Origin: Thermococcus sp. 4557
GTDB taxonomy: Archaea; Methanobacteriota_B; Thermococci; Thermococcales; Thermococcaceae
Assembly: GCF_000221185.1 (NCBI RefSeq)
Contig: NC_015865.1
Location: forward strand, 310,001 to 374,000
Direction: 5' to 3'
DNA length: 64,000 bases
This document shows positions 46,566 to 62,477 of this stretch, piece by piece (position 1 is the stretch's first letter; every line of letters begins with the position of its first letter). A model generated the notes under the pieces. That model had not been told where the DNA came from. It did not search any database and saw only the letters and a program-made list of their open reading frames with translations. Position numbers and translations under genes: made by a program.

Positions 46566-46654
46566 CTTTTAATCACCGGGCATTTGTAATCGCCAGTGCA
46601 ATAAAACCCTTTCGGCAGACCAACGGCGAAAATCGAAGTTCCCCGTTTCAAGAA

Positions 46655-46663: not shown

Positions 46664-46685
46664 ATCCTGAGGGAGTACTAGGTGT

Positions 46686-47354
46686 ATGGCGGTTTATCTA
46701 TTTGACTTCGACGGGACCCTCGTGGACAGCACGGGCGCGGTTGAGAAGGCCCTCCGCATAGCCATCGAAAAGACAGTCCCCGCGGTCATTGAGAGCGACC
46801 TGTACGAGGACTACTACAAGGCCCTCGCCCTTTTCATCAAGGGGAAGCTGACCTACCAGTACCTCGGTGTTATACACGAGCTGGTGGCACAGGGGACCAT
46901 ACACGAGTACTACAAGCTCATGCCCAGATACATCAAGGACTTCCCCCACTCCCGGAACGTCATCCGAACGCTGAGAAAGCGCGGGCGCTACGTCATCAGC
47001 TTCTCCGGCGAGCACACCTACCCCGGCGGAAAGGTCATCTTCATGAAGAAGACGAACTGGTACGACGAGTTCGATGAGGTAATAACCTTCAGGGGCACCA
47101 AGGACATGCTGAAGAAGTTCGAGAACCTGAGGGAGCTTTACCCTGACGAGCCCTTCGTCTGGGTGGACGACAGCCCGAGCAGGTTCACTTACATACTGGA
47201 TGAGAACACGCTTCTCGTTCAGAAGGCTTCCCCATACAAGAGCGACGTTGCACTGCTCTTCGAGAGGCAGAACTTCCTCAAGATCAAGTCCCTCCGGGAA
47301 ATCCTGGAGATAGACAATGGGCTCTCAGCCTTCGTCGGAGGGGATAAAACTTAA
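46686..47354 (+). CDS. HAD-superfamily hydrolase
   Basis: A 222 aa HAD protein. Motif I is [13 protein letters not shown] (4-16) with the nucleophile and acid Asp residues. Motif II lies in VISFSGEH (Ser near 104), a Lys in the [11 protein letters not shown] region may serve motif III, and [11 protein letters not shown] (about 157-167) is motif IV. Cap type and substrate are unclear; it differs from the usual phosphoglycolate phosphatase. Its end is 41 bp before the L35Ae gene. Confidence 0.88.
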
Positions 47355-47395
47355 AAATACCGCCGGGCGAACCCCCTCCGGTGGAGGTGGGGACG

Positions 47396-47662
47396 ATGGC
47401 CAGGGGAAAGGCTCTCGTCCTTGCCTACGCCGGGACCAAGGAGCACCAGGACAACCACCACATGATTCTGAAGCCCCTCGGCATCGACGACAGGAACGCG
47501 GCTTCAAGGCTCATAGGCAGGAAGGTCGTCTGGAGGACGCCGACCGGCAGGAAGATGTTTGGCAAGATTCTCAAACCACACGGCAACAGGGGCGAGGTCA
47601 AGGCCTACTTCAAGCCAGGCCTGCCGGGACAGGCGGTCGGTGACTACGTCGAAATCCTTTGA
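47396..47662 (+). CDS. rpl35ae: ribosomal protein L35Ae (eL33)
   Basis: An 88 aa basic protein of the large ribosomal subunit found in archaea and eukaryotes. It begins [20 protein letters not shown] and contains [32 protein letters not shown] (ends quoted), the conserved core with the G-N-x-G-x-V-x-A-x-F end, then [13 protein letters not shown]. The start has GGTGGAGGTGGGG upstream; in-frame GTG codons before it are part of that site. A TATA-like ACTTAAAAAT lies near 47349. It precedes trm1. Confidence 0.93.
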
Positions 47663-47708
47663 GCGCAACCCTTTAAACCTCCCAACCTTTTCTTTCTCCG
47701 GTGAGAGG

Positions 47709-48845
47709 ATGGAGTTCGTTGAGGTGCGCGAGGGTCTTGCAAGAATCCTTGTACCGAAGGCGGAGAGAATATACGACGCCCCCGTCTTCTACAACCCGGT
47801 AATGGCATTAAACCGGGATATAAGCGTCCTGGCCGTTGGAGTGCTCAAACCGAGGACCGTTCTCGATGCACTCTCTGCAACAGGAATCCGGGGCATCCGC
47901 TACGCCCTCGAAACCCCCGTCGAGGAGGTCTGGCTCAACGACATAAGCGAAGATGCCTTCAACCTGATCCTGGAAAACGTCCGGCTGAACCTCGGCGTCA
48001 ATGGGGAGAGGATAGGCGAGAAGAGGTTCTCATTCGAGGGAGAGAAGAAGGTTATAGCCAACCTCGACGACGCCAACAGACTCATGGCCGAGAAGTTCCG
48101 GTACTTTGACTTCCTCGACCTCGACCCCTTCGGCTCGCCGGTTGAGTTCCTCGATACGGCACTGAGGAGCGTCAGGAGAAAGGGAATTTTAGCGGTCACC
48201 GCCACCGACACCGGTGTCCTATGCGGCGCCTACCGGCACGCCTGCCGCAGGAAATACCTGGCGGAGCCGATAAGGGGCGAGCTCTGCCACGAGGCGGGTT
48301 TGAGGATTCTCATCGGAACCGTTGTCAGGTACGCGGCCAAATACGACCTCGGCGTCGAGGTTCTCCTGGCGTACTACCGCGACCACTACTTTAGGGCCTT
48401 TCTGAGGCTCAAGAGCGGCGCGAGGAAGGCCGACGGGAGCATTGAACGGCTCGGCTACCTGTGGCAGGATGAAAACGGCAGATTCGGGTACGAGAACTCC
48501 TTCCTGCCCAAAAGACCCGGCGCATACGGCCCCCTCTGGCTAGGTCCGCTGAAGAGCCAGGAGTTCGTTGACGAGGTGCTGAAGCTGGCCTGGGAGCACC
48601 CCCTCGCCCACAAGAAGACGCTGCCCTTCTTAGAACTCCTCAGCGGGGAGCTGGACATCCCGTTCCACTACGACACCCACGCTCTGGCCAGAAGAAACAA
48701 CCTCCAGGTCGGGAAGCTCGCGGATATTATCGAGGCCCTCCACGGGAAAGGTTACTCTGCAACGAGAACACATTTCTCCCCAATGGCCATTAAGACGGAC
48801 GCGCCCTTCGAGGAGGTGCTGGAGGCGCTGAGGAGCCTCCGATGA
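47709..48845 (+). CDS. trm1: tRNA (guanine26-N2)-dimethyltransferase Trm1
   Basis: A 378 aa Trm1 enzyme that forms m2,2G26. Signatures are [15 protein letters not shown] (about 28-42), the SAM-binding [18 protein letters not shown] (about 54-71), [14 protein letters not shown] (with the catalytic DPFG) and [20 protein letters not shown]. The C-terminal domain has the [18 protein letters not shown] segment typical of archaeal Trm1. ATG 47709 is chosen because the L35Ae gene occupies the upstream frame and GGTGAGAGG precedes it. Confidence 0.96.
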
Positions 48846-48893
48846 CCGACATCCATTTAACCTCGGCCGCCGTTCTTTCCAGGGGGTGAGGGG

Positions 48894-49988
48894 ATGGACG
48901 AGATGCTGGAGCTGGCGAGGGGCTTCTACAAGGACGAGTACGCCGACTCGGTTCTCTACGCCCAGCTCGCAAAGATTGAAAAAGACGAGGAGATAAGGAA
49001 GGAATTTCTGCGGCTCTCGAATATAGAGTCAAAACACGCCAAGTTCTGGCACGACTTCATAAAGCGGCATGGGGGAGAGGTTCCAAAGCCTTCGGTTAGG
49101 AGGCTCACGATATTCAGCGTCAAGCTCCTCAGGAGACTCCTTGGACCGGGCTCGGTCGCTTCACTCCTTGAGATGGGCGAGAACAGTGCGATACAAAAGT
49201 ACTTCAAATACCTCACGACCTACGCGGACAGGTTCAGCGAGGACGAGCTGGGGGAGATAAAGGACGTCATACTGGACGAGCTTGAGCACGAGAAGTTCTT
49301 CTACGAGAGCAAGGAGCGCTTCCACGTCGAGAACACCCGCGACCTCGTTCTGGGCATGAACGACGGGCTGGTTGAAATCCTCGGTGCCGTCACGGGTCTC
49401 TCCGCGGTGTACCCGAGCAGCCCGCAGCTTGTTGGAATAAGCGGCCTCATAGTCGGCGTAGCCGGTGCGCTCTCGATGGCCATAGGCACCTTCGTCTCGG
49501 TCCGCTCCCAGAGGCAGATTAAGGAATCCATCCGCGACAGGATGGAGGTCCTCTTCAGAGTTTCGCCGGAAAGGGCGGCCGAAGAGCTCGTGGAGAAGTT
49601 CGTCGAGGGAGGAATGCCCGAGGAGGTCGCAAGGGACGTGGCAAGGGAGCTCGCCGACAACAGCGATGCGATAATGCAGCTCCTCCTTCCGGAGGCGGAG
49701 GAGAACGAGATAAGGGCGGCTCTCTACACGGGTTTCGCTTACCTCCTGGGTGTTGCCTTCCCTGTCACGCCGTACTTCCTCGCGTCCAGCTCGCTGACGG
49801 CCCTTCCCTTCTCGATACTGCTGGCTGGCTCTGCCCTGGCGATAGTGGCGACCATGATATCGCTCCTCTCCGGAATCTCGATCAGAAAGAAGGTCGCCGA
49901 GATGGTGGCGACCGGCCTGGGTGCGGCATTCCTGAGCTATCTCTTCGGCCGGCTCATGGAGGTTCTCTTCAACGTCTCGGCGCTTTGA
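48894..49988 (+). CDS. ferritin-like/VIT1 (CCC1) membrane iron transporter
   Basis: A 364 aa fusion. The N-terminal four-helix ferritin-like domain (about 1-140) has E-rich metal helices (ESKHAKFWHDFIKRH and ILDELEHEKFFYE). The C-terminal VIT1/CCC1 domain (about 150-364) opens NTRDLVLGMNDGLVEILGAVTGL and has about five membrane helices with a cytosolic KESIRDRMEVLF to SDAIMQLLLPEAEEN loop. Such proteins export or sequester Fe2+/Mn2+ and match membrane-bound ferritin families. It complements feoABC uptake at 39-41 kb. GGGGGTGAGGGG precedes the ATG. Confidence 0.92.
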   Translation: MDEMLELARGFYKDEYADSVLYAQLAKIEKDEEIRKEFLRLSNIESKHAKFWHDFIKRHGGEVPKPSVRRLTIFSVKLLRRLLGPGSVASLLEMGENSAIQKYFKYLTTYADRFSEDELGEIKDVILDELEHEKFFYESKERFHVENTRDLVLGMNDGLVEILGAVTGLSAVYPSSPQLVGISGLIVGVAGALSMAIGTFVSVRSQRQIKESIRDRMEVLFRVSPERAAEELVEKFVEGGMPEEVARDVARELADNSDAIMQLLLPEAEENEIRAALYTGFAYLLGVAFPVTPYFLASSSLTALPFSILLAGSALAIVATMISLLSGISIRKKVAEMVATGLGAAFLSYLFGRLMEVLFNVSAL

Positions 49989-49995
49989 TCCGTTT

Positions 49996-51366
49996 TTACA
50001 CCTTCACGTATTTCCACTTCCCCCTCTTGAACGCCCACCAGAAGAGGGCCGCGGTTGTGAACGTTTCGAGGCTCATCGCTATCCACGCGGCTATGACGCC
50101 CAGTCCCTCAAAGTGTATTGGACCGATTGTAAAGCCGAATCCAAGGATGTACGCGGGCACTATGCGGAAGAGGAGCTTGCTGACGGCGGTGATGTACATC
50201 GGCGTCTTGGTGTCTCCCGCCCCCCTAAGTGCACCGCCGAGAACGAAGAGCCAGCCGAGGGGGATCTCGCTTATTCCGACTATTATGAGGTATATGCTCG
50301 CCAGCCTCATGACCTCACCGTAGTTCGGGTCGCTCGGGCTTATGAAGGGCATGACGAGGTAGCGCGGGAAGACGATAAGGATGAATGCCATCACCGCCAT
50401 AAACGCGCCGACCATCTTGAGGGCCTCGTAGACGGTCCTCTCGGCCTTCTCGGGTTTTCCCTCACCGAGGCTCTGGCCCACGAGGGCGGATGTGGCGACG
50501 TTAAAGCCGAAGGCAGGCATGTAGGCTATGCTCTCCACGCGGAGGCCAACCTGATGGGAGGCAAGGGCCACGGTCCCAAAGCGCGTGACTATGCTCATGT
50601 ATATGAAGTTGTAAAAGCTGAATATCCCGCGCTCGACCATGGTGGGGATTCCTATACGGAGTATCCTTCCCGCCATGTCCGGGTGGAAGCTCCAGCTCGG
50701 CCGGAACCTCAGCACGAGCCTCCCGCTCCAGAGGAGATAGAGTCCGATGAGGAACGAGGTGGTGATTCCTATGCCCGACGCCCATGCGGCACCCACGGGA
50801 CCAAGCTCGGGAAAACCTAGCTTTCCGAATATGAGGAGGTAATCGAGAACCGCGTTTACCACGTTCATAAGGATGCCGAGCTTCATGGGTGTCTTCGTGT
50901 CCCCGGCGCCTCTGAGGGCCGAGAAGGCTGTAAAGCCTGCGAATCGAATCGGATAGAAAGCGAAGAGCACCTTAATGTACCTGTAGCCCAGGGCAACGAC
51001 GTCGGGTTTTGCCCCCATTATCCTCAGGATATCGTCGCCGAAGACCCACCCGAAGAGCATGACGGGGATTCCCAGGAGAAACGCCAGATAGAGGCTCTGC
51101 TCCAGTGCAAGAACGGCGCTCTCCTCGTCCTTCGCCCCAACGAACCTCGCCACCAGCGCGAGGGTTCCAGTTGCGACCGCCGCCATGATGGGCATCATGA
51201 ACCAGCTCACCTGACCACCGAGGCCGACGGCGGCCAGAGCTAAAGCACCCAGCTGACCGACCATCATCATGTCCACTAGGTTGAGAAGCGTCTGGGAGAT
51301 GTTGCCCATTATCGCCGGCCACGCCAGCTTCCAGAGACGGCGCTGGTTCTCGTTGAAGCGCAACAT
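49996..51366 (-). CDS. MATE-family efflux transporter
   Basis: A 456 aa MATE exporter with twelve predicted membrane helices in two six-helix halves. Family marks are KLAWPAIMGNISQTLLNLVDMMMVGQLG at the start (quoted ends), GLGGQVSWFMMPIM, and the repeated RGAGDTKTPM in both halves (about 158 and 385). MATE pumps expel cationic drugs or toxins using Na+ or H+. Substrate unknown. It converges with the ferritin-VIT1 gene (7 bp gap). Confidence 0.95.
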   Translation of the reverse strand: MLRFNENQRRLWKLAWPAIMGNISQTLLNLVDMMMVGQLGALALAAVGLGGQVSWFMMPIMAAVATGTLALVARFVGAKDEESAVLALEQSLYLAFLLGIPVMLFGWVFGDDILRIMGAKPDVVALGYRYIKVLFAFYPIRFAGFTAFSALRGAGDTKTPMKLGILMNVVNAVLDYLLIFGKLGFPELGPVGAAWASGIGITTSFLIGLYLLWSGRLVLRFRPSWSFHPDMAGRILRIGIPTMVERGIFSFYNFIYMSIVTRFGTVALASHQVGLRVESIAYMPAFGFNVATSALVGQSLGEGKPEKAERTVYEALKMVGAFMAVMAFILIVFPRYLVMPFISPSDPNYGEVMRLASIYLIIVGISEIPLGWLFVLGGALRGAGDTKTPMYITAVSKLLFRIVPAYILGFGFTIGPIHFEGLGVIAAWIAMSLETFTTAALFWWAFKRGKWKYVKV

Positions 51367-51433
51367 TAAGACGTCCCTCTAAACGGTAAAGCTAACGTTG
51401 AAGTTAATAAGGATTGCGGTGACCTGCCCGGAA

Positions 51434-51456
51434 CACATGTCGCAAAAAACCATGTG
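51434..51456 (-). terminator. candidate terminator downstream of L37e
   Basis: CACATG (51434-51439) and CATGTG (51451-51456) can pair, and the loop carries T6 on the minus strand. It is 31-53 bp after the L37e stop and may end the Sm-L37e transcript. Confidence 0.35.
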
Positions 51457-51486
51457 ACTGCTAAAGTGGAGAAAATAAAAGGAGGT

Positions 51487-51678
51487 TCAGTAGGCGAGGT
51501 TCCTCTTCTTCTTCCACTTGTGGGACCAGCTGTACTTCCTCATGCGCCTGCTCCTGCCGAAGCCGCAAGCGGCGCAGTAGCCCTTCTGGACGTTGAAGGC
51601 GCGCCTTCCGCAGCGCCTGCATCTGATGTGAGTTGGAGTGTGGTTCCTCCTGCCCTTTGGTTCGGTTCCCGCTCCCAT
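51487..51678 (-). CDS. rpl37e: ribosomal protein L37e (eL37)
   Basis: A 63 aa basic zinc-ribbon protein of the large subunit. It shows [28 protein letters not shown], with CxxC...CxxC at about 20-23 and 35-38, then the [10 protein letters not shown] tail. Length is typical. It follows the Sm-like gene by 25 bp on the same strand, a common archaeal pair. Confidence 0.97.
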
Positions 51679-51703
51679 GGTATCACCTCGCTAAGCCACG
51701 ACT

Positions 51704-51934
51704 TCACTCAAGCTCAACCGGGGAGATGGCGAGAACGTTGTCTCCCCTGATGACGATTTTACCGTACCTCTTAACTTCCTCACCCTCCTGGATGAGGGCG
51801 GCGTCCGCAAGGACGACGTTCAGGTGGATGTCGTAACCGATGAGCCTGCCCCTGAACTCCGAACCCCTCTTGAGGAGCACGAGGACATCCTTGTCGAGGG
51901 ACTTGTGGATAACGTCGAGTGGTCTTTCCGCCAT
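51704..51934 (-). CDS. Sm-like archaeal protein (LSm, SmAP1)
   Basis: A 76 aa Sm-fold RNA-binding protein expected to form a heptameric ring on U-rich RNA. Sm1 is DVLVLLKRGSEFRGRLIGYDIHLNVVL (about 17-43, quoted only by its ends DVLVLL and NVVL), and Sm2 includes KIVIRGDNVLAIS (about 58-70). ATG 51934 has GGAGGTG upstream. It is operonic with L37e. Confidence 0.95.
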   Translation of the reverse strand: MAERPLDVIHKSLDKDVLVLLKRGSEFRGRLIGYDIHLNVVLADAALIQEGEEVKRYGKIVIRGDNVLAISPVELE

Positions 51935-52088
51935 TTTCACGCACCTCCAAATAATCAAAGCTCGTAACGATAACGAGGGAAACGGTTTATAACTCTTTCC
52001 GTCCGCTGGCGGGGCGTTGGCGATTAGACAACGACACTCCCAAAAGGTTTTTATGAAAGTCCCCGACTCGGTTTTCAGGTGGTGAGTA

Positions 52089-53801
52089 ATGGGAGAGAAG
52101 CCCGACAGATACGAGATTCTTCAGGATTTGATGAGGAGAAGGGGCTTTGCATGGGGCAGCTTTGAAATCTACGGCGGCTCACGCGGATTCTACGACTACG
52201 GTCCGCTCGGTGCGACGATAAAGAGGAAAATCGAGCGGAAGATACGCGAGGCCTTCCAGAGGGAGGGCTTCTTCGAGCTGGAAACACCGGATATAACCCC
52301 CGAGAGGGTCTTTATCGCGAGCGGTCACGTTGAAAAGTTCGTTGACCCGCTGGTCGAGTGTAAGAAGTGCGGCGCAAGGTTTAGGGCCGACCACATAGTG
52401 GAGGAGGCCCTTGGAATAGACACCGAGGGTATGAGCGCCGAGCACCTAACTGAACTCATCCGCGAGCACGGGATAAAGTGCCCCGAGTGCGGCGGTGAGC
52501 TCGGCGAGGTCTGGTACTTCAACCTCATGTTCGAAACCAAGATCGGCCCCTACGGCGACCAGAAGGGCTACCTGAGGCCCGAGACCGCCCAGGGCATCTT
52601 CGTGAACTTCAAAAGGCTGAACGCTTTCGCCAGGAACAAGCTCCCCTTCGGCGTTTTCCAGATAGGCAAAGCCTACCGCAACGAGATTTCACCGAGGCAG
52701 GGCATGCTCCGTCTGAGGGAGTTCACCCAGGCGGAGGCGGAGATATTCTTCAACCCGAAGGAAACGGAGCATCCTCACTTCGATGAGGTTAAGGACGAGG
52801 TTCTCCGCCTCTATCCAATAGAGCACCAGCTCAAGAACCTCGGCACGATTGAGATAACCGCCGAGGAGGCCGTGGAGAAGGGCTACATCATGAACACCTT
52901 CTTCGCCTACTACATGGTCATGGTCAAGCGCGTCCTCCTCGACATCGGCATCCCCGAGGACAAGATACGCTTCCGCCAGCAGCTGCCCGAGGAGCGCGCC
53001 CACTACTCGCGCGACACCTGGGATGCCGAGATTCACAGCGAGCGCTTCGGCTGGGTGGAGTGCGTTGGAATAGCCAACCGCGGCGACTACGACCTGAGCA
53101 AGCATCTGAAGATGAGCGGCGCGGACATGACCGTCCTCATCCACTACGATGAGCCCAGGATAGTCAGGCGCCTCAAAGTGAGCCTCAACATGAAGCGCGT
53201 CGGACCGAAGCTGAAGAAGGACGCCAAGAGGATAAACGAGCTCATCCAGGGCTGGGACGAGGAGAAGCTGAGGAGCCTGGTTGAAGTCCTGGAGAGGGAC
53301 GGCAAAATCACCATCGAGGGCTACGAGCTGGAGAAGGACGACTTCATAATCAAGGAGGTCGAGGAGAAGGTCACCGGCGAGAAGATAGTGCCCCACGTCC
53401 TTGAGCCGAGCTTTGGAATAGACAGGCCGTTCTACCTGCTCCTTGAGAACAGCCTCGTCATCGAGGAGGACAGAACCTACCTCAAACTGAAGAAGGACAT
53501 GGCCCCGATTGAGGTCGCAGTCCTGCCTCTCGTCGCCAAAGAGCCGCTGAAGAGCATAGCCTACGACGTCTTCAGGACGCTCCAGAAGGCAGGCTTCATA
53601 GCGGTCTACGACGAGAAGGACACCGTTGGGAGGAGATACCTCCGCTACGACGAGATAGGAACGCCCTACTGCGTGACCATCGACAACCAGACGCCCGAGG
53701 ACAGCACCGTTACGATCCGCGACCGCGACACGAAGGAGCAGGTGAGGATTAGCATCGAGGAGCTGCCGTCAAAGCTCAGGGAGCTGATTTTCGGGGAGTG
53801 A
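52089..53801 (+). CDS. glyS: glycyl-tRNA synthetase
   Basis: A 570 aa class II synthetase of the alpha2 archaeal/eukaryotic type. Motif 1 lies in FFELETPDITPERVF; motif 2 in QIGKAYRNEISPRQGMLRLREFTQAE (quoted ends); motif 3 in EPSFGIDRPFY. ECKKC and CPECG (about 96-100 and 137-141) form a zinc site. The C-terminal anticodon-binding domain starts near 475 (PIEVAVLPLVAKEPL). A TATA-like GGTTTTTATG near 52043 and GGTGGTGAG before ATG support the start. Confidence 0.98.
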   Translation: MGEKPDRYEILQDLMRRRGFAWGSFEIYGGSRGFYDYGPLGATIKRKIERKIREAFQREGFFELETPDITPERVFIASGHVEKFVDPLVECKKCGARFRADHIVEEALGIDTEGMSAEHLTELIREHGIKCPECGGELGEVWYFNLMFETKIGPYGDQKGYLRPETAQGIFVNFKRLNAFARNKLPFGVFQIGKAYRNEISPRQGMLRLREFTQAEAEIFFNPKETEHPHFDEVKDEVLRLYPIEHQLKNLGTIEITAEEAVEKGYIMNTFFAYYMVMVKRVLLDIGIPEDKIRFRQQLPEERAHYSRDTWDAEIHSERFGWVECVGIANRGDYDLSKHLKMSGADMTVLIHYDEPRIVRRLKVSLNMKRVGPKLKKDAKRINELIQGWDEEKLRSLVEVLERDGKITIEGYELEKDDFIIKEVEEKVTGEKIVPHVLEPSFGIDRPFYLLLENSLVIEEDRTYLKLKKDMAPIEVAVLPLVAKEPLKSIAYDVFRTLQKAGFIAVYDEKDTVGRRYLRYDEIGTPYCVTIDNQTPEDSTVTIRDRDTKEQVRISIEELPSKLRELIFGE

Positions 53802-53847
53802 AGTGCTGTCCCCGCTTTTTCAACTACTCTTTTTGCTGGTGTTTCCC

Positions 53848-54348
53848 ATGAAAATCCACCTCATCTACCGGAGGATTCCGAACCGGGTTCTCGAGCGGGA
53901 CGACGAGGTTATAGCCGATTTAGGTGAGGTAGTGGTTGCCAAAGCTAAGTTCGAGGGCATGCTCGCCCCCCTCAGGGTGAACGGCGTTGAGGTCATCAAA
54001 AACGGCTACCGCATGCTCTATTTCGCCTTCGTTGGAGAGAACTACGACATCCTGAAGGTCTACGACGAAAACGGCAAGTTCAAGGGGCTTTACATCGACG
54101 TTCTCGCCTACACGAGGCGCGAAGGAAACACCCTTGAGATGCTCGACCTCTTCCTCGACATCTTCGTCTTCCCGGACGGGGAAGCTTTCCTCATCGACGA
54201 GGACGAGCTTGAGATGGCCCTCAACTACGGGCTGATTGACAGGAAAACCTCTGATTTGGCCTACCGCGTTGCGAGGGAAATCCTCGAAAAGCTTAAACGC
54301 GGAGAGTTCCCGCCCGATATCGTGTGGGAGTACGACTGGAGGGATTAA
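53848..54348 (+). CDS. DUF402-domain protein
   Basis: A 166 aa protein consisting mainly of a DUF402 fold, seen in the archaeal FAU-1 RNA-binding protein and in bacterial nucleoside di/triphosphatases. The conserved region runs YDENGKFKGLYIDVL to LDLFLDIFVFPDGEAFLIDEDEL, with the YID and DLFLD acidic residues. ATG 53848 is favoured by GGTGTTTCCC; an upstream start at 53803 would add a hydrophobic 15-residue stretch and overlaps the glyS terminator area. It is 2 bp before the DUF167 gene. Confidence 0.85.
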   Translation: MKIHLIYRRIPNRVLERDDEVIADLGEVVVAKAKFEGMLAPLRVNGVEVIKNGYRMLYFAFVGENYDILKVYDENGKFKGLYIDVLAYTRREGNTLEMLDLFLDIFVFPDGEAFLIDEDELEMALNYGLIDRKTSDLAYRVAREILEKLKRGEFPPDIVWEYDWRD

Positions 54349-54350
54349 GA

Positions 54351-54656
54351 ATGAGCGCGAAGTTCCTGAAGGAGACCAAGGATGGAACGCTTCTCCTGGT
54401 ATATGTCCAGCCGAAGGCGAAGAAGAACGAGATTGAGGGGATAGACGAGTGGCGCGGAAGGCTGAAGGTCAAGATAAAGGCCCCGCCGGTTGAGGGGAAG
54501 GCAAACAAAGAGCTGGTGAAGTTCCTCTCGAAGCTCCTCGGTGCGGAGGTTGAGCTCGTCAGAGGGGAGACGAGCAGGGAGAAGGATTTGCTTGTTAGGG
54601 GATTGAGGGTAGAAGAAGTGAAAGAAAAACTAGAAGGGACCCTACTCAGAACGTGA
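54351..54656 (+). CDS. DUF167/UPF0235 (YggU-like) protein
   Basis: A 101 aa protein of the YggU family, of unknown function. The signature VYVQPKAKKNEIEGIDEWRGRLKVKIKAPPVEGKANKELVKFLSKLLG (ends quoted) carries the PPVEGKANKEL motif, followed by ELVRGETSREKDLLVRG. It follows the DUF402 gene by 2 bp, and its last 15 bp overlap the convergent AT-rich orphan gene. Confidence 0.92.
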   Translation: MSAKFLKETKDGTLLLVYVQPKAKKNEIEGIDEWRGRLKVKIKAPPVEGKANKELVKFLSKLLGAEVELVRGETSREKDLLVRGLRVEEVKEKLEGTLLRT

Positions 54657-55643
54657 GTTAGGGCTTGGAAATACTATAACAAAGTTAAACCCCTTCTCTG
54701 CTCTAACTTTACATATTGTAAATGAGGTCCCTACTAAAAGAATTGGGTCGTAATCGTTTAGATTTTCCAGTAATCTCCTTAGCTTATCGCTAGAATTTAT
54801 CAGCTGTAGTCTATCTAGACACCTTTCATACTCTCTAGCAAATATGTTAACCCGGAGATAGTGGTTATACGAGCTAAGCGATTTCTTTGTTGATACTGTA
54901 AGACGGTTTACTTCGTTCAAGACTGTGGATAGCCTACTAGTAGTCAGATATATCTTCCAGCGAGGATTGTTTCTAATAAACTCTGAAAGAATAGTCCACA
55001 ACACAAAATTAGACATACTAGTTACCCACACTCTAATTTCACGCTGAGTGAATACTCCCGCTATACCATCGGACTCCGTAAATGGTCCACTGCATATGTA
55101 CAACGGGCTATTACCTTCTTCTTGGGATTCGCGTGGGACCGGATTAGGCAATGTTCCCCTGTTTATCCGTAGTAACAATATGGGAGAGACATCCTCTGAA
55201 TCTACAGACTGGGCAATCTTGACTTCTAAATCTCTTAAAGCGGATGTGATTTCCGTTTCTAATAACCCTCTAAATTCTCTGAACACGTTCATTAATGATT
55301 TGAACTTGTTCTCAAACTCCACAGAATAACTATCAATAGTGTTTAGAAAGTCTTCCCGGTTAGATTGCCCAATCGTTTCATTTCTTGGTAACTCATTAAC
55401 GAATTTCACATAGAACCTTGCAAAATCCTGTAGTTCTTTTTGATATTTGCTCTGGGTGTCTATTATAAGTTCTTTGAGCCTATCCTCTTTCTTAAGGGGC
55501 TCATATAACGCTTCCTTTACAGTAGAGCATATTATATGCTTGTCAATTGCAACTTCTCTGTTTTCCTCAAAACGTCTAATGGCCTCTCTAATTGGCTCCA
55601 CTTTAAAATACAAACCTGTTATCTCCATGTCGTTCACCGACAT
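54642..55643 (-). CDS. AT-rich orphan protein, 333 aa, unknown
   Basis: A 333 aa cytosolic protein that I do not recognise. The N-terminal half is helical and charged (EPIREAIRRFEENREVAIDKHII, KKEDRLKELIIDTQSKYQKEL), suggesting a coiled coil. The C-terminal half is alpha/beta, with VWVTSMSNFVLWTILSEFI, RWKIYLTTSRL and DPILLVGTSFTICKV, reminiscent of a Rossmann-like or restriction-like sensor core. No catalytic motif is clear. Codon use is strongly AT-rich against GC-rich neighbours, and common rare-type codons (ATA, TTA, AGA) abound, so recent transfer is likely. Either ATG 55643 or ATG 55628 could start it. Its 3' end overlaps DUF167 by 15 bp. Confidence 0.7.
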   Translation of the reverse strand: MSVNDMEITGLYFKVEPIREAIRRFEENREVAIDKHIICSTVKEALYEPLKKEDRLKELIIDTQSKYQKELQDFARFYVKFVNELPRNETIGQSNREDFLNTIDSYSVEFENKFKSLMNVFREFRGLLETEITSALRDLEVKIAQSVDSEDVSPILLLRINRGTLPNPVPRESQEEGNSPLYICSGPFTESDGIAGVFTQREIRVWVTSMSNFVLWTILSEFIRNNPRWKIYLTTSRLSTVLNEVNRLTVSTKKSLSSYNHYLRVNIFAREYERCLDRLQLINSSDKLRRLLENLNDYDPILLVGTSFTICKVRAEKGFNFVIVFPSPNSRSE

Positions 55644-55737
55644 AAATGTAATAGAAAAAGGCTTAAAACTTTTTCCGTTGGGATGTCCACATTAACTTAA
55701 TTATGCTAAAAAGTAATGTGGAAAACATAAAGGCCTC

Positions 55738-56742
55738 TTACTTCAAAATCCCCAGGCTCTCGTTCGTCTTCCTTATGCTCTCCCACTTCTCCGCCATCTC
55801 GAACATCGCCCTTATCGCGTCGATGTTCTCCGGAACCACGTCGCTCTCCTGATGAACGGCCTGAATGTAGAACAACCTGTTTCCGCGGACGCTGATGCTC
55901 TCTTTCCAGACGGCTATCTCGTAGAGGTTGTTCCACTCGCGGTGCAGGTCGCGGGCGAACTCTATGAGCTGGGCCGTGCTGTCGAAGCCCTTCCCCTTCT
56001 CGAAGAGGAGAACGCGCGTGGTGTTCTCGAAGATGTCCACAACGTCCTTGGCCTCGACCGGCTTCTTCAGCTCGACCATGATGCTGTGAACGTGCATGAG
56101 CGTGGTCGGAACGACGAAGGCTGAGGTCTCGATGTTAATTGGGATAACAGTCTGGACGTCCGGGCCGTGGTGGGACGGGACGGTAACGCTCGGGGTTATG
56201 GCGTTGACCGGGCCGCGCTTGGCGTCGTTCGGGTCAGCCGCGCGGCGAATCATGACCGCGTAGACGTAGTCGATGTACTCCCCAATCGCCGAGAGGGTTC
56301 TGGTAAGGCCTGTGGTGTTGCAGGAGACGACGCGGACGTAGTCCTTTCCGAGGGCCTTCTCGTAGTTGGCCTGGGCCACGAAGGAAACATCCGCGGTGGT
56401 GGCCTTCTCACCGCCCTGGAAAATCGCCTTAACGCCGGCCTTCTCGTAGAGGGCCTTGTTTTTAGCTCCCATCCCTCCCGGGGTGGCGTCGACGATGACG
56501 TCAACCTCATTGAGAAGGTCACTGAGAGTTCCGGCGACCTCAAAGCCGGCCTTCTCGAACCTCTGCAGGAACTCCTCGCTGGCGGCGTAGACAGGGATTC
56601 CGAGCTCCTTCGCGCGATACGCTTCAAAGTCCGGCTTCGTCTTGGTGACGCCTATGAGCTTCATATCGTCCTGCTTCGTGACCGCGTAGGCGACGCGCTT
56701 TCCAATTGTTCCGTATCCATTGACTCCAACCTTCACCTTCAT
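55738..56742 (-). CDS. gap: archaeal glyceraldehyde-3-phosphate dehydrogenase (phosphorylating)
   Basis: A 334 aa archaeal type GAPDH. The nucleotide-binding start is [20 protein letters not shown]; the catalytic Cys is Cys141 in [24 protein letters not shown] and [13 protein letters not shown] are also family-typical. In Thermococcales this enzyme works in gluconeogenesis, since glycolysis uses GAPOR and GAPN. ATG 56742 follows GGTGGTAGC. A palindrome of TGM type sits just upstream of the TATA region, matching regulation by the sugar-responsive Tgr/TrmBL1 regulator. Confidence 0.97.
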
Positions 56743-56772
56743 GCTACCACCGGAGAATTTTACCGCGATAAA

Positions 56773-56780
56773 ATACTTAA
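56773..56780 (-). promoter_or_regulatory. TATA region of gap
   Basis: On the minus strand ACGTTTAAGTATTTT gives a TATA-like element about 32-38 bp before ATG 56742. The TGM-like palindrome ends six bases upstream of it. Confidence 0.4.
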
Positions 56781-56785
56781 ACGTT

Positions 56786-56806
56786 GTTTTCACTCGTGGT
56801 GAAAAC
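56786..56806 (-). promoter_or_regulatory. TGM-like palindrome (probable Tgr/TrmBL1 site) of gap
   Basis: GTTTTCAC-N5-GTGAAAAC is a perfect 8-5-8 inverted repeat. It preserves the TCAC-N5-GTGA core of the Thermococcales glycolytic motif (consensus TATCAC-N5-GTGATA). It lies directly upstream of BRE/TATA, the position from which Tgr activates gluconeogenic genes when sugar is absent. The flanking bases differ from consensus (TTT for TA). Confidence 0.6.
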
Positions 56807-56899
56807 TGCCCTTCAAGTCACCGGATTTTTACATCTTCGTGCAAAGGGCTCCCGCTGGGGTTATAAGCCAGTCTGCCGGATAGTCTACCGGTGGTTGAG

Positions 56900-57658
56900 A
56901 TGTTCGCCGAGATACTCACGATAGGCGACGAACTGCTCACGGGAAACACCGTGGACAGCAACTCCGCATTTATTGCCCAGAAGCTCACCGAGAGGGGGTA
57001 CTGGGTGAGGAGAAAGACGACCGTTGGCGACGACATTGAGGAAATCAAGACCGCCATTCGGGAAATCCTCGCGAGAAAGCCTGAGGTTCTGGTCATCTCC
57101 GGCGGCCTCGGGCCTACTCACGACGACGTTACAATGCTGGCCGTTGCCGAGGCCCTGGGCAAAAAGTTCGTCCTCTGCGAGCCGTGCCTTGAGAGGATCA
57201 GGGAGTTCTACCGCGAGCTCTACGAAAAGGGTCTGATAGACGACCCCGAGCTCAACGAGGGGAGGAAGAAGATGGCCTACCTGCCGGAGGGCGCGGAGCC
57301 CCTTGAGAACACCGAAGGGGCCGCCCCAGGAGCGTACATCGAGCACGAAGGGGTAAAGATATTCGTCCTTCCCGGAATGCCGCGTGAGATGAAGGCAATG
57401 CTTGAGCGGGAAGTTCTGCCGAGGCTCGGCGAGAGGAAGTTCATCCAGAGGAAGCTGCTGGCTGAGATAACCGACGAGAGCAAGCTGGCGCCGATTCTAA
57501 TCGAGGCACTCAAAAGGTTCCGCGTGAGAATACACTCATCGCCGAAGGGTTTCGGCAGGTACATCGGCATCATAATCTTCGGCGAGAGCGAGGATGAGAT
57601 AGAGAGGGCCAAGGCCTTCATGGAGGAGCTGGGGGTTCGCTTCGAGGAGGGCTGGTAG
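56900..57658 (+). CDS. CinA-like competence/damage-inducible family protein (COG1058)
   Basis: A 252 aa protein of the MoCF/CinA N-terminal family. It starts AEILTIGDELLTGNTVDSNSAFIA (quoted ends) and carries VLVISGGLGPTHDDVTMLAVAEALG, NTEGAAPGAYIE, and KIFVLPGMPREMKAML. These are typical of CinA's ADP-ribose pyrophosphatase-like domain; the C-terminal NMN deamidase domain is missing, as in other archaeal members. It is distinct from moaB at the left end of the window. GGTGGTTGAG precedes the ATG. Confidence 0.9.
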   Translation: MFAEILTIGDELLTGNTVDSNSAFIAQKLTERGYWVRRKTTVGDDIEEIKTAIREILARKPEVLVISGGLGPTHDDVTMLAVAEALGKKFVLCEPCLERIREFYRELYEKGLIDDPELNEGRKKMAYLPEGAEPLENTEGAAPGAYIEHEGVKIFVLPGMPREMKAMLEREVLPRLGERKFIQRKLLAEITDESKLAPILIEALKRFRVRIHSSPKGFGRYIGIIIFGESEDEIERAKAFMEELGVRFEEGW

Positions 57659-57705
57659 CGAAACGCTGATAAGGGTTCGAGAGACAAAATGAACATGGTG
57701 GAAAG

Positions 57706-57894
57706 ATGCCGGTAGTGATAGATGTTCCCAAGGACATAGAACCCCTCGTGAGGGAGATACTCAAAGCCGTTCGGAAGGGCAGGAGAGAGAAGGCTCTAAA
57801 AGACCTTGAAAACGTTATTCAGGCCGTTAATCAAAATACTCCCGAGGAAATTCCTGATACCCTTGAACTGCTTGAGGAGCTGAGGGAAAGATGA
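57706..57894 (+). CDS. VapB-type antitoxin (putative), second pair
   Basis: A 62 aa charged helical protein (PVVIDVPKDIEPLVREIL to ELLEELRER) overlapping the following PIN gene by 4 bp (ATGA). Position and size fit an antitoxin; no clear DNA-binding fold. It differs in sequence from the pair at 1432, so they are separate modules. GGTGGAAAG precedes the ATG. Confidence 0.65.
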   Translation: MPVVIDVPKDIEPLVREILKAVRKGRREKALKDLENVIQAVNQNTPEEIPDTLELLEELRER

Positions 57895-58328
57895 TAGTGA
57901 CAGATGCGTCTTTTGTAGTTGATGCCCTTGTCGTCCCTCGAAGGAAGAAAAAAGATGAGACGTATCTGAGGCAGTTGAAACGCCACCGGCGCTCTAAAGA
58001 GTTGCTGTCGTTCTTTTTGGAAGAGGGCTTCCAGCTTTACATACCCTTTCTTGGCCTTGTGGAGGTTTCTTCTCTTCTTGTCAGGAAACTCGGAAAAAGA
58101 GCCAACATTGATACTGCCTTAGAGTTTTTGGATGAATACTTCTTCGTGGTCTCTGAAAAAGACTTGGAGGAATTCATACTGGAAATCGCAAGAGAGACAG
58201 GTTCAAGGGCCGCGGATATCTACTACATTTCCCTAGCGAAGATGAAAGGCGCGGTCCTTGTAACCGTAGACAGGAAAATGGCTGAGATTTCAAAAGACGT
58301 GGGTGTCAAGGTGATTTTAGTGGAGTGA
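57891..58328 (+). CDS. PIN-domain toxin, VapC type, second pair
   Basis: A 145 aa PIN RNase. Acidic residues lie in MIVTDASFVVDALV (Asp5), LGLVEVSSLLV (Glu near 60), TGSRAADIYYISLAK (Asp near 105) and LVTVDRKMAE (Asp near 123). The KKKDETYLRQLKRHRRSKELL segment resembles the [20 protein letters not shown] segment of VapC at 1628, so the two toxins are related. Its stop overlaps ATG codons of the eIF2B-like gene. Confidence 0.87.
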   Translation: MIVTDASFVVDALVVPRRKKKDETYLRQLKRHRRSKELLSFFLEEGFQLYIPFLGLVEVSSLLVRKLGKRANIDTALEFLDEYFFVVSEKDLEEFILEIARETGSRAADIYYISLAKMKGAVLVTVDRKMAEISKDVGVKVILVE

Positions 58329-58333
58329 TGCCC

Positions 58334-59161
58334 ATGCTTCCCCCAGAGGTTCGTTCAATCATTGAGGAGATGAGGGCCGAGAGGATCAGGGGCGCCAGCT
58401 GGCTGGCCAGAAGGGGCGCTGAGGCATACCTCGTCCTTTCAGAACTCATTGAGGGAGAAGAGCTTGAGAGCGCCCTGAGGGAGATGAAGAGGGAAATCCC
58501 GGCCGTCAACGGCACGATGGCCTCGCTCTACAACCTCGCGAGGTTCATTCCGATAACCGGAGACCCCGACGTGGTGAGAACGAAGGCCGAGGAGTTCATC
58601 AGGCTCGGGGAGGAGGCGAAGCGCGAGATAGGCAATATCGGGAGCGAGCTGATAGACGAAAACGAGGTTGTAATCACGCACTCATTCTCCTCGGCAGTTC
58701 TTGAGATATTCAGGGCCGCGTGGAGGAAGGAAAAGCACTTCAGGGTCATCCTAACCGAGAGCGCGCCTGACTACGAGGGAATAGCCCTCGCGAGGGAGCT
58801 TGATTCCATCGGGGTTCCATTCGAGGTGATAACGGACGCCCAGCTCGGCCTTTTCGCGAGGAAGGCCACCCTTGCCCTGGTCGGTGCCGACAACGTTACC
58901 CGCGACGGGGCCGCGGTGAACAAGGCCGGAACATACCTCCTCGCCCTCGCCTGCCACGACAACGGCGTTCCCTTCTATGTCGCCGCCGAGAGCTTCAAGC
59001 TTCATCCAGAGCTGAGCTCGGGTGAGGTTGAAATCGTCGAGAGGCCCTACGTGAGGCAGGGTTACCGGGTCAGGAACATGCTCTTCGACGTTACCCCCTG
59101 GCGGTACGTCAGGGGCATCATAACGGAGTTTGGGGTTCTGGTTCCCCCGAAGGAAATCTAA
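58334..59161 (+). CDS. eIF2B alpha/beta/delta-like protein (aIF2B family)
   Basis: A 275 aa protein of the eIF2B/ribose-1,5-bisphosphate isomerase family. It contains GASWLARRGAEAYLVL, VVITHSFSSAVLEIF, VILTESAPDYEGIALARELDSIGV, VGADNVTRDGAAVNKAGTYLLAL (ends quoted) and FDVTPWRYVRGIITEFGVLVPP. It is shorter than the known Thermococcus R15P isomerase (about 322 aa), so it is probably the other paralogue, whose function is not settled; nucleotide metabolism or a translation-factor-like role are options. ATG 58334 has GGAGTGAT upstream and lies 6 bp after the VapC stop. Confidence 0.85.
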   Translation: MLPPEVRSIIEEMRAERIRGASWLARRGAEAYLVLSELIEGEELESALREMKREIPAVNGTMASLYNLARFIPITGDPDVVRTKAEEFIRLGEEAKREIGNIGSELIDENEVVITHSFSSAVLEIFRAAWRKEKHFRVILTESAPDYEGIALARELDSIGVPFEVITDAQLGLFARKATLALVGADNVTRDGAAVNKAGTYLLALACHDNGVPFYVAAESFKLHPELSSGEVEIVERPYVRQGYRVRNMLFDVTPWRYVRGIITEFGVLVPPKEI

Positions 59162-59199
59162 AAAGTCAACACAGAAAACAGAAATGAGAGAAAAGGGGC
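59162..59199 (-). terminator. T-rich termination region for the large secreted protein gene
   Basis: On the minus strand the 38 bp after the stop read CCCCTTTTCTCTCATTTCTGTTTTC, then a T5 run near 59160. It lies between convergent genes. Confidence 0.35.
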
Positions 59200-61821
59200 T
59201 CACTCCTGGTGAGCCAGCCAGAGGAGGGCACCTTTGATGAAGGGCCAGCTGCTCTTGATGTATTTCTGGTAGTAGTCGTCGCTGAGGGCCTTGCTTGAGC
59301 CGTAGGCGACTATTCTGCCGGTGCCGAGATCAACGGCAGCCGCTATAACTGGGTTGGTGCCAGGTATCCTGACGACGTTTCCATCGGCATCGACTGAGTA
59401 GCTGGTGTCGTAGCCTTTGATGAGCCACACCGCGGTGCCGCCTATTGTGAGGGTGTCGCCGTTGTAGTACATCGTCCAGTCGTCGGGCACGAACTTCATG
59501 ACTGGGTGTGCCTTGTTGTATATCCCGACGAACGGGTAGTAGGGCCTGCCGCCGTTCTGGTCGTCGTCCATGAGCTCGTCCGGGTTGAATGTTATCCCGT
59601 AGTCACCGACTATCTCGTTGAAGTTCTCGACGTTGGCGTACTTGTACCATTCGCCAGTTATTAACAGACCTCCGCCGTTCTCGATGTACTCTTTGATGCT
59701 CTCAATCTCGGCGGGGGTGAAGTCATCCTTCGGGTCGGTGAGTATCACAACGTCGTACTCCTTGAGGAGGTCGTATGTGAGCGGGAGCTGGTTTATCTCC
59801 ACTTCCCAGCCGAGCTCGTTCTCTATCTTGTCCACGAGGTAGCTGACGCCGACCTTGTTGATGTAGTACTGTCCGTGGGCGGCGTCGATGAGAACGCGGG
59901 TCACGTGGATGGTGACGTTGGTTGTGGGGGTGGTGTTGGTTTCAGGGATGGTTCCAGTCTCGTTGCCCGGAGCCGTTTCGGTTTCGTTTGAGGGGGCCGG
60001 CGGGTGGCAGATGGGCTCGACCTGGGCCAGCACCGCCTGGAGCTTTGGAAGGACATCGTTGATCTCCTCGGTCACGTCCCTGCCGAGCATCGCGGCCTTC
60101 CTTATGTGGACCATCACAGGGTAGTAGTACGAGTTCCTGTACGGGTTCTGCTGGACGAGGAGGCCCTTGAGAGCATCGTAGAGCTGGTACTGCCTCTGTA
60201 TCTCCTCCATGCTGTCCTCTATCCACTGAACCTTAGGGGCGAGATCGCCGAGGTCCACACCGCAGGAAGTGAGCTCTTCAACGACCCTGGTGAAGTTTTC
60301 GTACAGGGGGGTTACGTTTGCCATCTCCTTGGTGTAGAGCCTCTCGTAGTACGGGGTGAGGCCGTATGCAACGACGTTGGGGTTCGGAACGACCTTGTAG
60401 TCGTAAACCCTTTCATCAACCAGGCCCCAGTCCTCCGCAAAGACCTGTATGTCAATTGAAAGCCCTCCCAGCTCCACCGGAAGGTATGAAAGTTCGTAGG
60501 TTGCGCTTCCGCCGGTCTCTATCTCGTGTGTGGCATTCCCCACCTTGGCCCCGTTGGCGTAGAGAACCACAGTTACGTTGTCCGCCACTTCCCCGTTGTT
60601 GACGACCGTGATCTTGAACCTCATCGGGACGCCCTTGATGGCGTAGTCCGGCCTGGCCACGTGCGAGATGCCAACGGACGGGATGTAGAGTTCGTAGTCC
60701 GTTGGATAAACCTCGATAATCTTGTATTTGTAGCCGATTCCCTCAACGTATTTCAGAATTTTACCCTGGGTGACGTCCATTATTTCATAGTAGTCGTAGA
60801 GAACCAGCGTTCCGGTGTCGTCAGCGACGGTGATGCTGCTCCCATCAACCTCGGTAATCCTGACCCACTCCAGCCTGACGCGCATGCTCTGGTATGCGTC
60901 GCTCATGTTGGCCACATTAATCACAACTGGCTCCGGGAGCTCGGAGGTCCCAACCACCTTGTAGGTGGGGTTCTTTATCTCGTAGAGTCCGTTGTATGCG
61001 GCGGTCGTCCCGTTAACCTGAACGATATCTCCGGGCTTAACGTCTTTCGTGAATGACTTACCCACGTATATGTAAATTCCGCTGTTCGGCTCGGTGCCGT
61101 TCTGGATGAAGAAGCCGGTGCTGCGGGTGCCTATGACTATTCCGCTGGTGACGACCTGCTTGCCGCTCTCCCAGTTCTCCCTTATCTCCCTGATGGGCTG
61201 ATACTTCGGGCCCTCCGGGACGTAATAGACCACCTCAAGGTAGGGATATTTCCCGTGGCTGCTCTCCTTGGAGTTGTAGCTTATGCTCTCCGTGACCTTA
61301 TCCTCAACGTCGGATATGAGGACGAAGCTGACGACCTTGTCTCCGGAGAATTCGCCCTTAACGAAGTCCGTCACGTTCCAGGTGGACCAGTGGCGCCCAT
61401 CTGTATCAACGAGGTCCTTATCGAGAAGCTCCCCTGCGGAGGGCTTGATGTTCCAGGTTATCGAGTCCTCGGTCCAGGAATCATCGGAAACGGCATAGGC
61501 GCTTATGTTAACAGGGGTTGAGTAAGCCCCGCTGTAGGTATAAGCGCGCAGCACTGCGCTGACTATCACCGCATTGTCGGGGATGCTGGAGAGATCGAAC
61601 TTGAGGTATGCCCTCTCGTTCGCGTGGTCCCTGTAGTAGGTTCCGACGTAAAGACTGCCGTAGGAGCCATAGTTTGAGTCAGGAGCGCTGTCTTTAACGT
61701 ATGCATCATCCGTGGGGTTTATTTGAACCGTCGTCGTTGCTGCTGAAACCGCGTGGAACGCGACATTCGGCACAATGCTTAACACCAATAGGGCCATTAA
61801 AACGATGCTCCACCGCTTCAT
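59200..61821 (-). CDS. large secreted multidomain protein (DNRLRE-like, OB-like, CARDB, DUF4350/GATase-like)
   Basis: A roughly 873 aa exported protein. Residues 1-27 are a signal peptide ending AVSA. Residues 28-200 look like a DNRLRE/CBM-like beta-sandwich (INPTDDAYVKDS, YGSLYVG, AYLKFDLSSIP). Residues 210-350 look like an OB-fold domain (SGIVIGTRSTGFFIQNG, VKPGDIVQVNGTTAAYNG). A CARDB-like domain follows at about 380-470, then a helical region. A Thr/Pro/Asn linker is at about 606-640. The C-terminal 230 residues are GATase-like (VLIDAAHGQYY, VVILTDPKDDFTPAEIESI, GGGLLITGEW). It ends without a membrane anchor. ATG 61821 follows GGTGATTCCT. Polysaccharide binding is likely for the N-terminus; enzymatic activity is unproven. 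Confidence 0.8.
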   Translation of the reverse strand: MKRWSIVLMALLVLSIVPNVAFHAVSAATTTVQINPTDDAYVKDSAPDSNYGSYGSLYVGTYYRDHANERAYLKFDLSSIPDNAVIVSAVLRAYTYSGAYSTPVNISAYAVSDDSWTEDSITWNIKPSAGELLDKDLVDTDGRHWSTWNVTDFVKGEFSGDKVVSFVLISDVEDKVTESISYNSKESSHGKYPYLEVVYYVPEGPKYQPIREIRENWESGKQVVTSGIVIGTRSTGFFIQNGTEPNSGIYIYVGKSFTKDVKPGDIVQVNGTTAAYNGLYEIKNPTYKVVGTSELPEPVVINVANMSDAYQSMRVRLEWVRITEVDGSSITVADDTGTLVLYDYYEIMDVTQGKILKYVEGIGYKYKIIEVYPTDYELYIPSVGISHVARPDYAIKGVPMRFKITVVNNGEVADNVTVVLYANGAKVGNATHEIETGGSATYELSYLPVELGGLSIDIQVFAEDWGLVDERVYDYKVVPNPNVVAYGLTPYYERLYTKEMANVTPLYENFTRVVEELTSCGVDLGDLAPKVQWIEDSMEEIQRQYQLYDALKGLLVQQNPYRNSYYYPVMVHIRKAAMLGRDVTEEINDVLPKLQAVLAQVEPICHPPAPSNETETAPGNETGTIPETNTTPTTNVTIHVTRVLIDAAHGQYYINKVGVSYLVDKIENELGWEVEINQLPLTYDLLKEYDVVILTDPKDDFTPAEIESIKEYIENGGGLLITGEWYKYANVENFNEIVGDYGITFNPDELMDDDQNGGRPYYPFVGIYNKAHPVMKFVPDDWTMYYNGDTLTIGGTAVWLIKGYDTSYSVDADGNVVRIPGTNPVIAAAVDLGTGRIVAYGSSKALSDDYYQKYIKSSWPFIKGALLWLAHQE

Positions 61822-61961
61822 AGGAATCACCTGAGAAAAAACGGTATCAATGTATAAATAAGTTTTTCCACCAGTTCCTTGTGTCAATTATCACCTAAGG
61901 TATTCACCAGCGCCCATAAAAGCTAAAAACTGAAAGGCTGCCAATTAAAAAGGTGGTCAAA

Positions 61962-62477
61962 ATGTCCATCACTACAAAAACGGGGGATAAGGGTCTAACC
62001 GGTCTCTTCACCGGCGACCGCGTGGCGAAGTGCTCGCCGATAATGGAGGCAAATGGAAACATAGACGAGCTCGACAGCTTCCTGGGGGAGGCCAAGCATT
62101 ATGTGCCCACGGAGATGGCCGAGATTCTCGAGAGGATACAGGTTCATCTTTACGACCTGATGGCGGAGATAGCGAGCAAGGGGAAGTACGCGAAGGTTGG
62201 CAATGAGGAGGTTGAATGGCTTGAGGGACTTATTCATAAATATGAAGAGGAAGTCCAGCTCCGGGCCTTCGTTCTTCCAGGTTCAACCATTGCGAGTGCC
62301 AAACTCGACGTCTGCCGGGCGGTGACCAGGAGAACCGAGAGGAGCGTTGCGAGGCTCGTTCTTGACTACGGCTTTGGCCAGAACGCTCTCGTCTACCTAA
62401 ACAGGCTCAGCGATCTGCTCTTCATAATGGCGAGGACGATAGAGAAGAGGGAGGGGAAGCTGAAGGAGGTCAAGTAA
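61962..62477 (+). CDS. cob(I)alamin adenosyltransferase, PduO type
   Basis: A 171 aa PduO/EutT-type ATP:corrinoid adenosyltransferase. It begins SITTKTGDKGLTGLFTGDRVAKCSPIMEANGNIDELDSFLGEAK (ends quoted), with the TKTGDxGxT ATP loop, then GSTIASAKLDVCRAVTRRTER (the conserved R-R-x-E-R) and LVYLNRLSDLLFIMAR. It forms the Co-C bond on salvaged corrinoids, upstream of CbiZ and CbiB encoded at the left end of the window. AAGGTGG precedes the ATG. Its end overlaps convergent MFS by 8 bp. Confidence 0.95.
   Translation: MSITTKTGDKGLTGLFTGDRVAKCSPIMEANGNIDELDSFLGEAKHYVPTEMAEILERIQVHLYDLMAEIASKGKYAKVGNEEVEWLEGLIHKYEEEVQLRAFVLPGSTIASAKLDVCRAVTRRTERSVARLVLDYGFGQNALVYLNRLSDLLFIMARTIEKREGKLKEVK

Follow-up and report, generated by a model that had tools for sequence, protein, structure and literature searches.

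An AT-rich orphan gene in a variable DUF167-GAPDH cargo slot of the Thermococcus chromosome

Integrase-poor bacterial hot spots have been proposed to be renewed by double homologous recombination at their flanking core genes (PMC5635113, 2017). The slot described here, between a DUF167 gene and a glyceraldehyde-3-phosphate dehydrogenase (GAPDH) gene of Thermococcus, resembles those hot spots in its two conserved flanks, high cargo turnover and mosaic flanks, and also in that no mobility gene is recognisable in the Thermococcus cargo scanned. Those hot spots were reported within bacterial species, whereas the slot recurs across species of an archaeal genus and, unlike them, has an empty site with two abutting stop codons.

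The orphan gene that occupies this slot in Thermococcus sp. 4557 is comparable to the archaeal 'dark matter' genes (PMC4158269, 2014) and to the atypical-gene clusters of integrative elements (PMC2718499, 2009), with which it shares a narrow spread, an atypical composition and the lack of known relatives. Those surveys concern multi-gene islands or clusters, whereas the orphan locus is one gene between conserved genes. In the literature searched we recognised no paper on the DUF167-GAPDH slot; PMC4158269 was rejected as a source linking DUF167 with Thermococcus, the match there being to DUF1673.

Our analysis covers a stretch of 64,000 nucleotides (NC_015865.1, positions 310,001 to 374,000), hereafter the window, to which all coordinates refer. 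The locus adds one more example to a known class, an ordinary cargo slot, and holds a singleton protein. We consider it probable that the orphan is an accessory gene acquired recently by a cargo slot that turns over through recombination, a reading that draws on direct observations of foreign composition, strain-specific presence, an empty site, alternative cargo, repeated turnover and mosaic flanks.

Flanks, empty site and cargo of the slot

The slot is bounded on the left by a DUF167/YggU gene on the plus strand (54351–54656; the ATG at 54351 is a likelier start than the listed GTG at 54324) and on the right by the gene for type II glyceraldehyde-3-phosphate dehydrogenase on the minus strand (55738–56742). 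The conserved left neighbour of DUF167 is a plus-strand DUF402 gene (53803–54348), recognised by its family match and by comparison of intervals. The inserted segment was taken to begin after DUF167 codon 92 (numbered from 54357) and to include the GAPDH stop; the resulting ends, 54633–55740, are comparison boundaries rather than precise insertion ends.

GAPDH was found in 57 of the 61 genomes of the genus, the window's included, and loci were taken from 52 of the 56 others; the four left out, G002, G074, G076 and G081, have a partial GAPDH or one that lies at the end of a contig. DUF167 faces GAPDH on one contig in 47 of these 52 loci, which with the window makes 48 genomes. Four of the remaining five loci reach a contig end (L039, L044, L078 and L083), and the fifth, L058, from a complete-looking congener, has no DUF167 within 14 kb. 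Among 27 GAPDH loci from five genera outside Thermococcus, DUF167 is adjacent in 11, with intervals of 135–3086 bp, and in 16 it does not appear within the 9 kb or less that could be examined. We count the non-adjacency in L058 and outside the genus against the slot reading.

The site is empty in 12 of the 47 comparison loci, where the stretch after DUF167 codon 92 is exactly 12 bp long and comprises two DUF167 codons and a stop, with the GAPDH stop immediately after it. This GAPDH stop reads TGA in every one of the 12 genomes and TAA in the window. The other 35 sites hold 423–3996 bp and that of the window about 1.1 kb, so that the whole set of 48 genomes contains 12 empty and 36 filled sites. 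Beyond the end of the BLAST alignment, the DUF167 tail has two codons in 35 of the 47 loci, one in five and three to seven in six, all of them filled, and one alignment passes the stop; against the usual two codons, the tail in the window has seven, read from the insert. The slot tolerates cargo because the flanking genes end tail-to-tail with abutting stops, and inserts thus break neither.

To describe the alternative cargo, 16 representative proteins were drawn from the 35 filled loci, each of which matches at least one of them; the counts come from protein matches to these representatives, ORF clusters, which include antisense artefacts, having been set aside. A Trp/Tyr-type amino-acid permease is present in 12 of the filled loci, a small membrane protein in eight and a four-gene ABC operon in six. 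PhzF, a DUF234 ATPase and a pair of MazE-like and PIN proteins occur in five loci each, as does a small protein without a family (one more, with a 32-residue part, is counted among these). A CDC48-like ATPase, an AAA_14/DUF4143 ATPase and two proteins without a family are each found in a single genome. No cargo ORF in the 35 filled intervals is like the orphan (best BLASTP E 2.4). Two loci have stacked cargo, L046 with DUF234 and CDC48-like ATPases and a MazE-PIN pair, and L048 with the AAA_14/DUF4143 ATPase, a familyless protein and a MazE-PIN pair; the PIN gene adjoins GAPDH in both.

Among the ATPases of the slot, those of the DUF234 and AAA_14 families are hit by the PADLOC models PDC-S27 and PDC-S01, and the ABC and CDC48-like ones by several models, as can happen with ATPases; no PADLOC model matched the MazE and PIN cargo proteins. 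Genes for transport or metabolism occur in the slot no less often than defence-like ones. A Pfam scan of 19 cargo proteins or pieces, nine of them without a family, found no integrase or transposase. Three features of an integrase-poor hot spot are thus seen here: one pair of core genes bounds the interval in many genomes, turnover is high and diverse, and the cargo scanned contains no mobility genes. The first-pass annotation had proposed a hot spot from the position of the orphan between conserved genes, and the comparison of the DUF167-GAPDH interval across strains, with cargo in 35 of 47 loci and none in 12, bears it out.

The orphan gene and its predicted protein

The orphan ORF lies on the minus strand at 54642–55643 and comprises 333 codons and a stop. 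Its GC content is 38.7%, compared with 55.8 ± 3.1% (minimum 45.5%) for the 56 other non-overlapping window ORFs of at least 120 aa, and its GC3 is likewise 38.7%, compared with 70.9 ± 8.5% in the same set. Of the 57 ORFs it has the lowest GC content, and its synonymous codon use deviates most, which upholds the earlier remark that its composition and codon use are unlike those of its neighbours. The tail-to-tail overlap of 15 bp with the DUF167 gene, also remarked on earlier, is exact (54642–54656). Two further ORFs are listed within the insert (93 and 82 aa), both antisense to the orphan.

Several other loci in the window were noted. One kb beyond GAPDH, at 57706–58328, a small ORF with no Pfam family and a PIN-domain ORF likely form a VapBC-type pair, and the PIN-domain ORF has the second-lowest GC content in the window (45.5%). 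A HEPN-domain ORF (44028–44402) lies beside a divergent 121-aa ORF without a family, both at 49% GC, so that 43611–44402 is a possible HEPN toxin-antitoxin locus. At 20502–21887 a tRNA-Glu gene precedes a gene of 48.5% GC whose product has staphylococcal-nuclease and lamin-tail domains, and a PIN-domain ORF of 49% GC is found at 1628–2098.

By the rules for archaeal promoters and ribosome-binding motifs, the orphan more likely starts at M6 (ATG 55628–55626) than at M1, which would give a protein of 328 aa rather than the 333 aa as called; the first-pass annotation made no mention of this start. M6 is the likelier start because a GGTGA on the minus strand (55638–55634), read by eye as a likely ribosome-binding site, lies 5 nt upstream of it, and because a TATA-like box (55668–55662), centred about 22 nt upstream of M1, would place the start of the transcript at about 55639, downstream of M1. 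This box is part of a minus-strand TATA/BRE-like sequence, GAAAAAGTTTTAAG (55662–55675), which was likewise recognised by eye from the consensus. The gap between the orphan and GAPDH also contains a putative inverted repeat (55675–55733) whose 20-nt arms are 75% complementary and share an exact 8-bp core (CCACATTA/TAATGTGG). A scan with bacterial-type promoter and terminator models, which are unsuited to archaea, found nothing, and Rfam has no match at the insert, the single weak match in the stretch lying in GAPDH.

We found no credible relative of the orphan in searches of genomes, contigs, plasmids, phages, PDB and family libraries, and its orphan status, as first described, stands. Across 61 genomes (36 congeners and its own among them) it matched, at E 0.01, its own genome alone, and in 115 genomes of the phylum its own genome alone gave a convincing E-value, eight others matching at chance level (E up to 0.5). 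Matches in 396 relatives across the domain were likewise at chance level (11 genomes, E up to 0.05), as were the single matches at E up to 0.01 in each of two other phyla (398 and 151 genomes). These weak six-frame matches are short or low-scoring, with E-values that apply per genome and genome sets that overlap; the ORFs behind three of them were inspected. Two scans each of genome contigs and viral contigs, whose reach is limited to close relatives, gave no relative, plasmids and phages gave no match by tblastn and blastn, PDB gave none by phmmer, and there is no second copy of the insert in the genome itself.

Family libraries gave a similar picture. Nothing exceeded the curated cut-offs of Pfam, searched with the whole protein and its halves, or of NCBIfam, which returned zero matches, and the best E-value from PHROGs and PADLOC, 0.0045, involves the helical segment alone; no PADLOC profile of a known anti-phage defence protein matched significantly. 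The earlier statement that no known motif is present therefore holds across four libraries. CST-I, Phe_ZIP, DUF5741, AAA_11 and FliH, as well as Cas11a, PDC-M09A, PDC-S04 and phrog_36942, were rejected as chance matches, being sub-threshold and confined to the helical N-terminal part.

Residues 53–147 have a strong helical amphipathicity with a period of 3.6 (none of 2000 shuffles is as strong), and the heptad period of 3.5 is weak (p 0.08 for 53–147; p 0.04 for both 1–147 and 93–147). The coiled-coil-like N-terminal half proposed earlier is thus borne out only in part, and 'helical' is a safer label than 'coiled coil' for these residues. The protein is probably soluble, because no long hydrophobic stretch is present (the maximum mean hydropathy over 19 residues is 1.27). 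Single-sequence AlphaFold2 models, with a mean pLDDT of 42.4 for the whole protein and 39.1 for residues 148–333 modelled separately, have helices to about residue 146 followed by alternating strands and helices, which at this very low confidence suggests an alpha/beta C-terminal half. On this domain layout the orphan protein would consist of two parts, an amphipathic helical N-terminal half that would associate with itself or with a partner, and an alpha/beta C-terminal half.

The TrmB effector domain (PF11495), suspected by eye for the C-terminal half, was rejected by profile comparison, as 49 of 150 shuffles score as high (34 of 150 after removal of a misplaced row, L173). We also consider it very improbable that the orphan is a distant member of DUF835 (PF05763), a family expanded in the genus, with nine matches in the window's genome and 5–14 in each of 12 other congeners searched. 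The possible likeness is a short resemblance in one C-terminal helix: the segment LINSSDKLRRLLENLNDYD, near residues 272–299, aligns in place with the DUF835 core helix (in an alignment of 27 of 30 fetched loci), and its profile probability was above that of all 60 shuffles in one run, although in another 4 of 150 shuffles reached the score. The hhalign probability is however 3% over only 28 columns, and the family had been picked after viewing a chance-level match (L090, E 0.10 per genome). Moreover, the orphan has no significant profile match, with no Pfam match to the family up to E 10 (cut-off 33.1 bits), and the EYL core present in most DUF835 alignment rows is missing from it.

Turnover of the interval and its flanks

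The acquired-gene load of the slot was gauged against three neighbouring intervals. The DUF167-GAPDH interval ranges from 12 to 3996 bp (48 genomes) and is the most variable of the four. The DUF402-DUF167 interval spans 7–843 bp (46 genomes), with 7–28 bp in 36 and 663–843 bp in 10, and the GAPDH-cinA interval 105–1755 bp (37 genomes), 32 being within 100 bp of the minimum. The glyRS-DUF402 interval, two genes to the left, is likewise variable, at 25–1508 bp (39 genomes; 49 bp in the window, at 53799–53847), and the DUF167-GAPDH slot is therefore not unique.

On a GAPDH tree of the 48 genomes, with 15 cargo states assigned by hand, cargo requires at least 29 state changes and the empty-versus-filled distinction alone requires 11. 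None of 200 shuffles is as low as 29, so cargo is clustered on this tree, chiefly the permease, and part of it, mainly the permease, has been inherited. Since GAPDH adjoins the slot and may itself recombine, we added a glyRS tree of the 38 genomes that have glyRS on the stretch (10 were left out; 12 cargo states). Here cargo requires 26 changes, a number as low in 60 of 200 shuffles, and is nearly unlinked to the tree. The change counts are rough: neither gene gives a species tree, either may have recombined, and good support is limited to 17 of 45 inner branches for GAPDH and 11 of 35 for glyRS.

Along the 20 kb from 44000 to 64000, the nearest of seven relatives changes several times. G064 is nearest over 47–50, 56.5–57.5 and 62–64 kb (91–97% identity); across 50.0–53.5 kb G034 or G031 is nearer to the window than G064, after which the nearest relative is again G064. 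At 51501–52000 identity is 99.0% to G034 and G001, compared with 90.8% to G064. G034 and G001 are mostly at 84–96% elsewhere, and this segment reflects either inter-species recombination or strong conservation of the genes there. The two gene trees differ too, GAPDH grouping the window with G064 (support 100/98) and glyRS grouping it with L033, L034, L035 and L052, without G064 (99/96). Such switching along the flanks is the pattern that homologous recombination of incoming DNA would leave. The nearest relative switches in a similar way at 45.5–47.0 and 59.0–62.0 kb, so the mosaic may be genome-wide in the genus and not specific to the slot.

We infer double homologous recombination as the mechanism of the swap. 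Incoming DNA with the same two conserved flanks would recombine with the chromosome and exchange the cargo, and an integrase would not be needed. In strain 4557 the swap would have brought in one AT-rich gene together with its promoter, the source probably being a mobile element or a distant donor, and the junction would fall inside the last DUF167 codons, the last two having been replaced by seven from the insert. As regards insertion by a mobile element such as an IS or an integrative element, the orphan has no integrase or transposase family match in Pfam or PHROGs, no convincing repeat pair was found at the insert ends, and no tRNA gene lies at the slot, the only one in the window being at 20502. 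When the 97-bp gap between the orphan and GAPDH was compared with the GAPDH-proximal 200 bp of the 35 filled strains, L077 scored clearly above its 200 shuffles and L045 and L065 barely so; with 35 comparisons made, this similarity was rejected as too weak.

Origin and meaning of the insert

That the orphan is a transferred gene, as had been suggested from the sequence, is supported by its composition, its absence from the congeners searched and the exact empty site that relatives show; an even, vertically inherited distribution across Thermococcales was looked for in the genomes searched and not found. As the searches gave no donor, it could nevertheless be an old gene lost everywhere else. 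This view, of a native, ancient Thermococcus gene that evolves fast and has been lost in nearly all lineages, would accord with the frequent changes between empty and filled states on the GAPDH tree, yet we regard it as quite improbable: a GC content 17 points below the neighbour mean is unlike long residence, and no diverged copy or remnant was found in the 35 filled intervals or elsewhere in the congeners searched. An origin from a virus or plasmid that was captured in the slot and then lost the rest of its genes by decay is a less probable but serious alternative to recent acquisition as a single accessory gene. Among 119 archaeal and bacterial genomes, 56% of newly found atypical-gene clusters were judged likely integrative elements (PMC2718499). 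This scenario is weakened by the lack of any orphan match in viral contigs, phages and plasmids, by an insert without an integrase or a clear terminal repeat, and by the intact reading frame and promoter-like signals of the orphan.

The interval as a whole might vary mainly by differential loss from an ancestral DUF167-permease-PhzF-GAPDH order, with occasional gains. Permease and PhzF do occur together in three genomes (nine others have the permease and lack PhzF, and two have the reverse), and the permease is clustered on both the GAPDH and the glyRS tree. Such loss is at odds with the 26 changes on the glyRS tree and leaves the ATPases, toxin-antitoxin pairs, ABC operons, CDC48-like cargo and the orphan unexplained, and we judge it unlikely as the main process. 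That the orphan is a spurious ORF in non-coding AT-rich DNA, as its lack of relatives might suggest, is least plausible of all and close to negligible: a frame of 333 open codons has a chance of about 1.5e-11 under a model of independent bases of the same composition, the encoded amphipathic helices are ordered, and promoter- and ribosome-binding-like signals were seen by eye. Recent acquisition through a recombining cargo slot is thus the reading that we prefer.

A lone function in conflict or stress, in defence or in the inhibition of elements, is the single most likely candidate role for the orphan protein, and we offer it as a tentative guess. It is suggested by analogy with other cargo of the slot, namely the MazE-PIN pairs and the PADLOC-matching ATPases; in archaeal rare-gene islands about 15% of the content was attributed to defence in one survey (PMC4158269). 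More speculative still, and doubtful, is the idea of the orphan as the first member of a new archaeal conflict system, made up of one gene and directed against viruses or plasmids, with an undescribed fold, for which the slot would be a standing integrase-free swap site.

The orphan itself will matter only once it is given a function. The intervals of other strains provide a list of candidate accessory genes, some of them beside candidate defence ATPases. An empty site with abutting stops, flanks alignable throughout the genus and cargo as varied as toxin-antitoxin pairs and transporters make the DUF167-GAPDH slot a simple system for following gene swapping in hyperthermophilic archaea.
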